Part shown: piece after piece, positions 2,058 through 22,336 of the stretch
Numbering within the stretch: position 1 is the first letter of the stretch
Layout: each line of letters opens with the position of its first letter
From: an uncultured Lachnoclostridium sp.
Lineage (GTDB): Bacteria > Bacillota > Clostridia > Lachnospirales > Lachnospiraceae
Assembly: GCA_946499505.1 (NCBI GenBank)
Contig: CAMMSL010000010.1
Coordinates: 1-64,000, forward strand
Reading direction: 5' to 3'
Length of the DNA stretch: 64,000 nt
The notes under the pieces: model-generated
What the model saw: the letters and a program-made list of their open reading frames with translations, nothing else
What the model was told of the DNA's origin: nothing
The model's database searches: none
Translations under genes and position numbers: made by a program

Positions 2058-2400
2058 TGTAGGAGTGACTGCCGAATTCGATAAAGCAGAAAACGGGCGA
2101 AGATGGGGCGCTGGAAAACTTAAAAAGAGATGAGGAGTATGTGCGGAAGACGACTTCGAAATAATCTGTTAGAAAAAATTAAGGATCTGAAAACTGATGT
2201 TAAGCTGAAAAATGGACTGTTTGAGCCAAAGGCGAGTTGTCCATTTTACAGCTTTGCTTTTAATCAGATTTCAGATCCTTTAGTTTTTCTCAGATTATGG
2301 AGCGGAGCCTGAAGCACATGCTGCTTATCTCAAAAAAGTATTTTAGTGCCTCATCCCCGTCCGTTTTCGGACCTTATCCCCATCGGCATTTAGTCCGACA
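2058..2400 (-). repeat. Hairpin repeat, type E1 (copy A)
   Basis: A 343-base imperfect palindrome lying 18 bases beyond the bioY stop codon, with ends TGTAGGAGTGACTGCCG and, inverted, TGTCGGACTAAATGCCG. Other copies are at 12132-12474 (the same length) and 21989-22336. In the centre, AAGCTGAAAAATGGAC faces GTCCATTTTACAGCTT (one mismatch) around a loop with TGTTTGAGCC and GGCGAGTT. A 60-codon reading frame crosses the element, but the nucleotide palindrome explains its conservation better than a protein does. Confidence 0.8.
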
Positions 2401-2418
2401 AACAAGAAATTTTTTATT

Positions 2419-2988
2419 TTAGCTGCCCTGCTTCCTTATTGAAGCCCGCAGTTTTGGCCCGATAATTGCCGCTATAATGACCTTTACCGCATCACCCGGC
2501 AGATACGGCAGTACACCGATTGCCAGAGCTGCAATAAAACTCTGGCCTGTCTGCCACGCCAGCCATGCCGTCCCAAAGACATAACATACCGACATTCCGA
2601 GGATCATTCCCAGGATGGCGGTATATTTTTTGCCTGGGAAGTGATCGAGAAAGAATCCCTGTATGAGAGCCAGCAGGATAAAACCGGCCAGATAGCCGCC
2701 GGTGGGACCGGCTAGCTTTGCCAGTCCGCCGCTGAATGAAGAGAAAACAGGGAGCCCGGCAGCTCCCAGCATGAGATACAGGATCACGCAGACTGAAGCA
2801 GATTTCATCCCCAGTATGTAAACGGCTAAAAAGATTATAAAGTTTGTAAGAGAAAGAGGAACCGGACTGACGGGAATTGGAATAGAAAACGGGGCGGCGA
2901 TGCAGATTACGGCTGTCATAAGACCGATTACGGTCATATTCTTTGTCTTACTCATTTGTTCAGATATACTGTTAGCATTGTCTTTCAT
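2419..2988 (-). CDS. bioY: Biotin transporter BioY (ECF S component)
   Basis: A 189-residue integral membrane protein with about six hydrophobic segments. BioY is the biotin-binding S component that docks on the shared ECF energising module (EcfAA'T). Family hallmarks are visible: IPIPVSPVPLSLTNF after the first membrane segment, the LGAAGLPVF and GPTGGYLAGF segments, and LPYLPGDAVKV near the C terminus. The start ATG at 2988 has AAAGG about ten bases upstream. No ecfA or ecfT genes are nearby, so it must use a module encoded elsewhere. A BirA-type operator overlaps its promoter, consistent with control by biotin status. The gene is convergent with the binding-protein gene, with the hairpin-repeat block between them. 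Confidence 0.93.
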   Translation of the reverse strand: MKDNANSISEQMSKTKNMTVIGLMTAVICIAAPFSIPIPVSPVPLSLTNFIIFLAVYILGMKSASVCVILYLMLGAAGLPVFSSFSGGLAKLAGPTGGYLAGFILLALIQGFFLDHFPGKKYTAILGMILGMSVCYVFGTAWLAWQTGQSFIAALAIGVLPYLPGDAVKVIIAAIIGPKLRASIRKQGS

Positions 2989-3029
2989 AGTTAGATACCT
3001 TTCATATACTAAATTTTATTTCGTTTAGC

Positions 3030-3082
3030 AGTATAATGAATAAAAAGTGAAATGTCAACCAAAATTATAAATAAGTTAACAA
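3030..3082 (-). promoter_or_regulatory. bioY promoter with overlapping BirA-type operator
   Basis: On the minus strand: -35 TTGACA (3058-3053), 17-base spacer, -10 TATACT (3035-3030). Overlapping the -35 is TTGTTAACT, 13 bases, GGTTGACAT (3082-3052). This matches the half-site sequence and spacing of the BirA operator of Firmicutes biotin genes (TTGTTAACC, 13, GGTTAACAA). BirA loaded with biotinyl-adenylate would block the polymerase here. Confidence 0.75.
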
Positions 3083-3092
3083 ATGAAATTAT

Positions 3093-3121
3093 TTGACACT
3101 GGAAAGGCATGACGATAGAAT
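3093..3121 (+). promoter_or_regulatory. Predicted promoter of the GH78-like gene
   Basis: TTGACA (3093-3098), 17-base spacer, TAGAAT (3116-3121). It lies back to back with the bioY promoter. The -10 falls downstream of an ATG at 3109, so translation most likely starts at 3157. Confidence 0.6.
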
Positions 3122-3156
3122 TGGATAAAGAATATGGAACAGGAGGCAGGAATATT

Positions 3157-19922: not shown

Positions 19923-19943
19923 ATAAAAACCTTGTAAACTATG

Positions 19944-20012
19944 TTGACAAATTGAAAGCAGAGTGCTATTTTATATTCATGAGGTTTAGCACTCGTGAGA
20001 AATGAGTGCTAA
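19944..20012 (+). promoter_or_regulatory. groESL promoter and CIRCE operator
   Basis: TTGACA (19944-19949), 17-base spacer, TATTTT (19967-19972). The CIRCE element TTAGCACTC, nine bases, GAGTGCTAA (19986-20012) is a perfect match, so HrcA represses groESL until heat or misfolded protein titrates GroEL. Confidence 0.97.
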
Positions 20013-20038
20013 CAAAACAAAATCAAGGAGGAATCACA

Positions 20039-20326
20039 ATGAAGTTAGTACCATTAGGTGACAAAATTGTTTTAAGACAGTTAGAAGCAGAAGAGACGAC
20101 AAAGTCCGGTATCGTTCTTCCGGGACAGGCAAAAGAGAAACCACAGGAAGCAGAAGTTATCGCTGTAGGACCTGGTGGAAATATAGATGGAAAAGAAGTA
20201 GTAATGCAGGTTAAGGCCGGCGACAAGGTAATCTACTCAAAATACGCAGGAACAGATGTAGAGCTGGATGGCGAGGAGTACATCATTGTAAAACAGAATG
20301 ATATACTTGCAATTGTTGAAGAATAA
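20039..20326 (+). CDS. groES: Co-chaperonin GroES
   Basis: A 95-residue protein from ATG 20039 (AAGGAGGAATCACA upstream). MKLVPLGDKIVLRQLEAEE at the N terminus and KAGDKVIYSKYAGTDVEL with EEYIIVKQNDILAIVE at the C terminus are typical. The mobile loop (TTKSGIVLPGQAKEKPQE) contains the hydrophobic Ile-Val-Leu that docks on GroEL. It forms the heptameric lid of the chaperonin. Confidence 0.98.
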   Translation: MKLVPLGDKIVLRQLEAEETTKSGIVLPGQAKEKPQEAEVIAVGPGGNIDGKEVVMQVKAGDKVIYSKYAGTDVELDGEEYIIVKQNDILAIVEE

Positions 20327-20353
20327 AAACATTAAATAAGGAGATGTATTGAC

Positions 20354-21979
20354 ATGGCAAAGGAAATTAAATATGGAGCTGAAGCCAGAACAGCACTTGA
20401 AAAAGGTGTGAACCAGCTGGCAGATACAGTAAAAGTTACACTTGGACCGAAAGGAAGAAATGTTGTCCTTGACAAATCATTCGGCGCACCGCTGATCACA
20501 AACGATGGTGTTACGATCGCGAAAGAGATTGAGCTGGAAGACGGATTTGAGAATATGGGAGCACAGCTGATCAGAGAAGTTGCTTCTAAGACAAATGATG
20601 TTGCCGGAGACGGAACTACAACAGCTACAGTCCTGGCACAGGCTATGGTGCATGAAGGTATGAGAAACCTTGAGGCTGGAGCAAACCCGATCGTCCTGAG
20701 AAAAGGTATGAAAAAGGCCACAGACAAAGCTGTTGAGGCAATCCAGGCTATGAGCAGCAAAGTAAAAGGGAAAGAGCAGATTGCAAGAGTTGCTGCTGTA
20801 TCATCGGGTGATGAGGGCGTAGGACAGATGGTAGCCGATGCCATGGAGAAAGTGTCCAATGATGGCGTTATCACGATTGAAGAGTCCAAGACAATGCAGA
20901 CAGAACTGGACCTTGTAGAAGGTATGCAGTTCGACCGCGGATATATTTCAGCTTATATGGCAACAGATATGGAGAAGATGGAAGCGGTTCTTGAGGATCC
21001 GTACATCCTGATCACAGATAAAAAGATTTCCAACATTCAGGATATCCTTCCGCTTCTTGAGCAGATTGTCCAGTCTGGTGCAAGACTTCTCATCATCGCT
21101 GAAGATATCGAGGGAGAGGCTCTGACAACTCTGATCGTAAACAAACTGCGTGGTACATTCAATGTTGTTGCAGTTAAAGCACCGGGATATGGTGACAGAA
21201 GAAAAGAAATGCTTCAGGATATTGCAATCCTGACAGGCGGACAGGTAATCTCTGAAGAGCTCGGACTTGACCTGAAAGAGACAACAATGGATCAGCTCGG
21301 ACGTGCAAAATCCGTTAAAGTACAGAAAGAGAACACAGTTATCGTTGACGGATGCGGCGACAAGAATGCGATCAATGACAGAGTCGCACAGATCAAGAAA
21401 GCAATCGAAGAAACAACATCTGATTTTGATAGAGAAAAACTTCAGGAGAGACTTGCAAAACTCGCTGGCGGCGTAGCGGTTATCCGTGTGGGTGCAGCTA
21501 CAGAGACAGAGATGAAAGAAGCAAAACTTCGTATGGAAGATGCCCTGAACGCTACAAGAGCAGCAGTAGAGGAAGGAATTATCGCAGGCGGCGGTTCTGC
21601 ATATATCCATGCTGCAAAAGAGGTTGCTAAGCTGACAGAAGAACTTGAGGGCGATGAGAAGACAGGCGCAAGAATTATCCTGAAAGCCCTTGAGGCTCCG
21701 CTGTATCAGATTGCTGCAAATGCAGGCCTTGAAGGCGCTGTTATCGTAAATAAAGTAAGAGAGTCAGAGCCGGGTATCGGATTTGACGCTTACAAAGAAG
21801 AGTATGTAGATATGGTAGAGAACGGAATCCTTGATCCCGCAAAGGTTACAAGAAGCGCGCTCCAGAACGCTACAAGCGTTGCATCTACACTGCTCACAAC
21901 AGAGTCTGTAGTATCCACTATCAAAGAGTCACAGCCGGCTGCACCGGCAGGCGGCGCCGGTGGAATGGGAATGATGTAA
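20354..21979 (+). CDS. groEL: Chaperonin GroEL
   Basis: A 541-residue protein, 27 bases after gro[22 protein letters not shown] and [18 protein letters not shown] carry the ATP-binding residues including the GDGTT motif. The apical and intermediate domains are complete, and the tail ends in the usual Gly-Met-rich stretch (GGAGGMGMM). The tetradecamer folds substrate proteins with GroES. An E1 hairpin repeat begins nine bases beyond its stop codon, where a terminator would be expected. Confidence 0.99.
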
Positions 21980-21988
21980 TTTCGATTT

Positions 21989-22336
21989 CTCGGACTGAAC
22001 GCCGATAATATAATGATCTAAGATCCGAAAACGGACGGAGATGAGGCACGGAAATACTTCTTCGAGATGACCGGCATGTGCTTCAGGCTCCGCTCCGTAA
22101 TTCGGGAAAAATTAAAGGTTCCGAAAGATGATTAAATGCAAAGCCTGAAAATGGAGAACTCGGCTTCGCCTCAAACACTCCATTTTCAGGCTTAACATCA
22201 TCTTCCGGAGCCTTAACTTTTTCCTTCGAATTCCTTCGAAGTCGCCTTCCTCACATACCGGTCATCACTTTTAAGTCTTCCTGTGCCTCATTTCCGCCCG
22301 TTTTCTGCTTTGTCGAATCCGGCAGTCAATCCGACA
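21989..22336 (+). repeat. Hairpin repeat, type E1 (copy C)
   Basis: A 348-base imperfect palindrome. The core stem AAGCCTGAAAATGGAG (22141-22156) pairs perfectly with 22178-22193, whereas copy B has AAGCCGCAAAATGGAC paired perfectly: three stem positions have changed on both sides. The loop mini-stem is GGC-TTC-GCC here and GCC-TTT-GGC in copy B, again compensatory. Outer arms ATGAGGCAC and GTGCCTCAT also pair. Confidence 0.82.

Follow-up and report, generated by a model that had tools for sequence, protein, structure and literature searches.

Long strand-specific hairpin repeats behind stop codons in an uncultured Lachnoclostridium

What are the long palindromes that recur in the genome of an uncultured Lachnoclostridium sp. 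(Lachnospiraceae)? We analyzed the first 64,000 nucleotides of contig CAMMSL010000010.1 (C10; assembly GCA_946499505.1, here genome G000), a stretch that we call the window, in which a preliminary description made from the sequence alone had noticed three palindromic repeats of 343-348 bases with compensatory changes in their stems. The three repeats lie where it placed them, with limits that we refine to 2056-2402, 12125-12480 and about 21985-22338 (in elements A, B and C, respectively), and the core arms it quoted were read correctly: those of B (AAGCCGCAAAATGGAC) and C (AAGCCTGAAAATGGAG) face perfect complements, that of A has one mismatch, and the mini-stem in the loop is GCC/GGC in A and B and flips to GGC/GCC in C. 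We distinguish two hairpin types, E1 and E2. The repeat first noticed, E1 (about 345 bp), is half of a longer element of about 700-870 bp and belongs to a dispersed family of long, repeated hairpins that selection keeps able to fold on one strand.

The preliminary description had proposed selection for folding, suggesting a covariance model and a search of Lachnospiraceae genomes as the check and an absence of covariation among many copies as the outcome that would count against it. We built such a model (R1, the central 171 positions of 24 copies drawn from G000 and from three relatives), searched the family with it, and found covariation among the copies. E1 of B folds at -147 kcal/mol on the plus strand (z -12.3) and at -178 kcal/mol on the minus strand (z -15.2), and 0/100 shuffles were as good on either. 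The 24 E1 cores, 23 of them distinct, have 98.2% of cells paired and both partners changed in 19 of 58 pairs; 0/500 shuffles reached their covariation score. A diverse set of 28 sequences, aligned with MAFFT without structure, comprised one locus from each of 19 other genomes of the genus and nine further sequences (from the window the three E1 and a single E2, plus another E2 and four loci from other genera). With the RNAalifold consensus of this same alignment as the structure, a choice that somewhat favors itself, both partners vary in 48 of the 51 pairs, giving 400 two-sided cells against 127 in shuffles (0/500 shuffles match) and at most 141 in slid versions. Separate MAFFT alignments gave two-sided changes in 45/47, 36/58 and 25/41 pairs, and among 46 mixed sequences the figure was 46 of 47. 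These 46 sequences also keep motifs near GACT..G.A, GTTAA, TGTYTGAGC..GCGAG, TTG.TTTTAG and GGA.CGGA, and the motifs of the apical and internal loops are conserved across genera. The repeats had been described as noncoding; E1 copies are 350-358 long, with differences that include non-multiples of three.

A covarying helix with conserved loops is shared with the structured RNAs of Rfam, unlike which the elements match no family at gathering score in searches of the whole window that were also run at a relaxed threshold, in line with the earlier remark that this was no known riboswitch. The best matches below threshold are microRNA-precursor families, and a known RNA family was rejected for want of any at gathering score. 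The repeat family combines a very clean covariation signal with no match in the RNA library used.

Does folding concern both strands or one? All 24 E1 copies fold better on one strand. We aligned each sequence to its own reverse complement with a scoring blind to G-T versus A-C and compared G-U with A-C on the model strand. The counts were 298:85 over full E1 in 24 copies (composition predicts 1.3 to 1), 90:5 in 19 one-per-genome cores (1.8 to 1), 86:4 in 13 E2 cores (2.1 to 1) and 17:3 in four cores from other genera (1.5 to 1); copies being related, these are not independent events. The bias runs in the same direction in every copy of the four sets (24+19+13+4). We rejected strand-biased deamination as its whole cause, since GC-to-GU and AU-to-GU changes both occur; this was judged from the commonest pair per column, so deamination is not the explanation for all of the excess. 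Because G-T is the milder mismatch in DNA too, the G-U excess cannot separate RNA from single-stranded DNA.

The stronger-folding strand is antisense to the gene that the hairpin follows. Among copies from G000 and three relatives, 25 of 28 have their left end no more than 11 nt from where an open reading frame (ORF) of 87 aa or longer ends. At the right end, where we set the element limits from BLAST limits, a convergent ORF stops no more than 6 nt away in 18 of the 20 copies with sequence beyond it, and 15 of 20 complete copies lie between convergent ORFs at both ends. A cruder gene call placed 34 of 53 units between convergent ORFs. We also sampled 58 units (29 from G000, 15 from G059 and 14 from G003, excluding L207, L241 and units without a fetched locus), of which 57 had enough sequence for a test on the 3' side. 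The stop codon of an antisense-oriented ORF (at least 90 aa, found mechanically) lay 46-115 nt past the core on this side, with a median of 98, in 53 of the 57, against 10 of 54 on the 5' side (Fisher p 1e-16, the units not being independent). The end motif AAATTCGTRTTTGTC, allowing one mismatch, directly follows a stop codon at 18 of 24 places. By ORF reading, about three of some sixty neighboring gene pairs in the window look convergent; elements A and B occupy two of them, and the third (32237/32520) has a tRNA and no R1 match.

The convergent location in this genus would suit cruciform or gyrase-type sites relieving supercoils where genes converge, an explanation by DNA architecture that we consider very improbable, given the strand-specific G-U bias, the conserved loops and the co-directional location in other families described below. 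The preliminary description had left the folded form as RNA or extruded DNA; folding itself holds, but strand bias is not what a cruciform predicts. Its suggestion of a family-specific terminator fits poorly, since the strand that folds better runs antisense to the neighboring gene and terminator-like sites (GC stem plus T run, loops of 3-8) are at chance level in the two elements scanned (one in A and none in B, against 1.0 and 1.3 in shuffles). An ordinary intrinsic terminator was rejected for its weak T runs and wrong strand. We likewise give hardly any credence to ordinary bidirectional terminators made alike through gene conversion: an outer-stem-only form of 36 bp occurs at one orthologous site (L329), as that explanation would have it, but length, a phylum-wide apical motif, strand bias and weak T runs all argue the other way.

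How widespread is the family? BLAST of copy B against the whole genome (3.08 Mb, 84 contigs) gave 46 matches, with both strands and fragments counted. R1 gave 52 matches in G000: 18 at 178-205 bits are E1, 15 at 82-98 bits are E2 except for one shortened E1 on C21, and the remaining 19, weaker, are opposite-strand echoes of E1 units. This makes 33 hairpin units at 82-205 bits. Seven E1 are paired with an inverted E2, and the folded strands point outward in 7/7. Contigs C15, C16, C21, C22, C23, C25, C27, C31, C43, C51 and C53 end in or near copies or end motifs; since so many contigs end at copies, the true copy number in G000 is probably higher, and such repeats may break assemblies. Scoring at most 48 candidates per genome, we found R1 matches in 48 of 58 genomes of the genus. 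With one genome per genus, 9 of 299 genomes of the family match; G000 is included in both counts.

The apical motif TGTYTGAGC-N-GCGAGTT reaches further: it occurs in 22 of 398 Bacillota genomes (G000 included) and 17 of 267 genera, with 171 matches summed, while the reversed pattern, as a control, had none in the 398 genomes. Outside the genus we checked 39 distinct occurrences from 20 other Bacillota genomes, at loci taken as supplied rather than drawn at random. The motif strand folds better in 35 of the 39, and four lie inside ORFs. Of the 35 others, 20 have the stop codon of an antisense ORF within 220 nt on the 3' side and two have that of a sense ORF on the 5' side. Among the 31 occurrences with an ORF on both sides, 28 sit between co-directional ORFs, and the folded strand there is not the transcript of the adjacent gene. 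An attempt to extend the stems overran the hairpins (G-U 371, A-C 329; motif strand more stable in 20/30) and was set aside. We think it unlikely, though conceivable, that one phylum-wide or perhaps wider family of strand-specific hairpins sharing the apical loop is set behind stop codons in a fixed orientation by a putative, dedicated mechanism of single-strand recombination or reverse transcription that senses gene ends.

E1 of B had no match in plasmid and phage collections, and an origin from either was rejected on this ground. The apical motif was found in IMG/VR in five stretches on four contigs, two of which carry hairpins of about 95 nt that share the apex. In L406, L407 and L409 from IMG/VR, which look phage-like by ORF reading, the hairpin repeats measure about 95 nt, share the apical motif and are followed by T-rich sequence.

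Orthologous sites indicate what varies between relatives. We searched 10 relatives for 12 G000 sites, using both flanks joined, and for a thirteenth site by its left flank; among the matches listed, 37 orthologous gaps at 10 sites had both flanks close together on one contig, leaving out two flank pairs 5-9 kb apart and flanks split between contigs. Thirty of the 37 gaps are 172-2419 bp long with differing hairpin content, seven are 3-51 bp, and R1 matches the folded strand in 19. Many keep the common outer ends despite differing length and content, and others do not (e.g., L317, L320 and L327). The genes on either side of B are split between contigs in G062 and have other neighbors there; the elements may therefore serve as rearrangement points. 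At L328 (G063:C85:33130-35840), hairpin units flank about 1.9 kb of sequence with two ORFs, of 308 and 277 aa, resembling a small cargo.

Outer ends from one locus complement each other better than ends from different loci. In 49 elements, orthologues included, matched ends scored 10.0 against 7.9 when shuffled, a value as high being reached in 1/10,000 permutations, and the score reaches 10 in 22 of the 49. Such matching speaks for an RNA function, in which RNA of the folded strand, from convergent read-through or an antisense RNA, would end or protect transcripts before they enter a neighbor in antisense, each element then amounting to two back-to-back antisense insulators. The strong G-U preference over A-C and the place of the folded hairpin as the last structure ahead of the opposing stop codon point the same way. 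Yet most copies have a short T run behind the hairpin (such as AATTTTA), promoter-like sites, like the terminator-like ones, are no commoner in A and B than chance predicts, and no folded-strand transcript is expected at the co-directional sites of other Bacillota. We regard RNA function as possible but doubtful as the explanation.

Which known repeats does the family resemble? REP, BIME and REPIN sequences are dispersed palindromic units in inverted pairs, mostly extragenic and on the 3' side of genes, with G-T pairs in their stems and a mosaic make-up, as far as the portions of PMC3733652 and PMC8266576 that we consulted describe them. Against these same portions, the present family is alike in being dispersed, palindromic, paired in inversion, mosaic, mostly extragenic on the 3' side of genes, and in having G-T pairs in its stems. 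The BIME trait of inverted unit pairs is present in the seven outward E1-E2 pairs, together with differing contents at orthologous sites. Unlike REP units as given there (20-50 nt), those here are about 100-345 nt, E1 measuring about 345 nt; the hairpins end at a stop codon in a fixed orientation, with the folded strand antisense, a rule of position that does not figure in those portions; and the link to RAYT is not significant. The REP tags are absent from the 5' base of the hairpin, where GTAG occurs in 3 of 25 copies (scattered) and CGTC in none of the 25, L019 among them being a shortened copy. What the family shares with BIME and REPIN is its dispersal, frequent inverted pairing, mosaic make-up and strand specificity; by tag and size it is not REP. 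Of the options that the preliminary description offered, a MITE/REP-like mobile unit among them, REP-like fits best, without the tag or the size of REP.

MITEs and the pneumococcal BOX, RUP and SPRITE repeats are short and noncoding, with stable folds and nested clusters, SPRITE being terminator-like, according to the part of PMC10969869 that we consulted. On that partial account, our repeats share the noncoding character, stable folds and nested clusters, and differ in that a parent insertion sequence is not known here, T runs are weak and covariation is strand-specific. As for the MITE trait of terminal inverted repeats, the matched outer ends outscore shuffled ones, but no more than 22 of 49 elements reach a score of 10. 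Among the papers listed by literature searches none dealt with this hairpin repeat family, and typed forms of the apical sequence occur, judging from the listings, in three unrelated papers. Integron attC sites, marked by R'/R'' boxes and an integrase, form a hairpin after the stop codon, with the folded strand antisense to the gene. By analogy the present hairpins may be likened to attC in location and strand alone, unlike which the copies here stand at scattered chromosomal sites.

Is there a mover? G000 encodes a single-copy RAYT-like protein of 255 aa (G000:C16:14207-14971) with a Y1_Tnp domain (PF01797, E 2e-7) and relatives in 38 of 58 genomes of the genus. Such an HUH protein, together with the single-strand logic of the hairpins, would suit a strict REP system moved by it, which we judge improbable in view of the absent tags. 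The protein is also missing from 14 of 48 element-bearing genomes of the genus (E 1e-10) and from 5 of 8 outside it (E 1e-20), some of these assemblies being incomplete, and fetched neighborhoods of 15 RAYT genes gave no R1 match in 13, one clear match and one at E 0.29. RAYT as the mover was left unsupported by weak co-occurrence, absent REP tags and few R1 matches near its genes. Eleven genomes of the genus have another RAYT-like subfamily (L258, L260 and others), whose identity to the first is 34-44%.

The reading we favor, with about even confidence, is that these giant strand-specific hairpins form a new class of REP/BIME-like repeat, probably recognized in folded, single-stranded form. 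It would be a non-autonomous repeat with the logic of REP and BIME: a putative enzyme or binding protein would target the folded strand, including the apical and internal loops that are conserved in it; copies would spread or be exchanged between sites as hairpins; and hairpins would be tolerated or favored only behind stop codons, where they may also separate convergent transcription units. Single-strand recognition and RNA function overlap, and both may hold.

Several observations weigh against this reading. No mover was found, in a search for which PF01797 was the only parent considered and the flanking ORFs were not scanned for transposases. RAYT accompanies the element in 34 of 48 genomes of the genus, against 4 of 10 without the element (p 0.07), and in 3 of 8 of the family outside the genus, against 50 of 290 (p 0.15); the PF01797 matches in G000 lie on C7 and C16, contigs without an R1 match. 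No clear target-site duplication was seen; AATT stands at both ends of many copies and, being constant, may belong to the element itself. Thirteen of the 35 non-ORF occurrences outside the genus fit neither position rule, the strand bias is weak when pairs are taken from the fold of the other strand, with nearly even one-sided changes (35 vs 29), and 27 of 49 elements have a poor outer stem (score under 10). The few empty sites lie in diverged relatives, and insertion is therefore inseparable from loss or gene conversion. The family may help to show how palindromic repeats select gene ends and whether selection acts on RNA or on single-stranded DNA.

How are the three elements of the window built? 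Element A (1613-2418, minus strand) spans the gap between the convergent ORFs 371-1615 (+) and 2419-2988 (-), with the stop codons of both at its ends, which are common to other copies. Its E1 hairpin folds better on the plus strand (R1 core 2144-2314 +, 194.4 bits) and runs reversed relative to E1 of B; its E2 core (1716-1881, minus strand, 90.6 bits with R1) is inverted to E1. A motif scan placed the apical motifs of A at 2218-2238 + (TGTTTGAGCCAAAGGCGAGTT) and, in E2, at 1791-1809 - (TGTTTGAGCATCGCGAGTT). Element B (12120-12991, plus strand) lies between the convergent ORFs 11630-12121 (+) and 12992-13639 (-) and is 99% identical over 873 bp to a copy at a different locus on contig C8. Its E1 folds better on the minus strand (R1 core 12218-12388 -, 205.1 bits), with the apical motif at 12294-12314 - by the same scan. 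The right module of B holds a shortened second inverted repeat (12574-12688, no strand assigned) with 45-nt arms that are 84% complementary, where R1 matches weakly (12594-12668, 11.6 bits, E 0.31).

Element C (21980-22677, plus strand) is 3' of ORF 20354-21979 (+), which we take to be groEL, and the next ORF, 22831-24285, is co-directional. Its E1 folds better on the minus strand (R1 core 22081-22251 -, 196.8 bits), and its right-hand sequence is common to A. Many copies share the outer ends AAATTCGTGTTTGT...ACAAACACGAATTT. Elsewhere in the window, an FMN riboswitch (8918-9051) and a cobalamin riboswitch (49519-49694) exceed their Rfam gathering scores, and 46509-48799 holds two direct-repeat blocks, 75-76% alike and about 1.45-1.5 kb apart, that are probably tandem gene copies.

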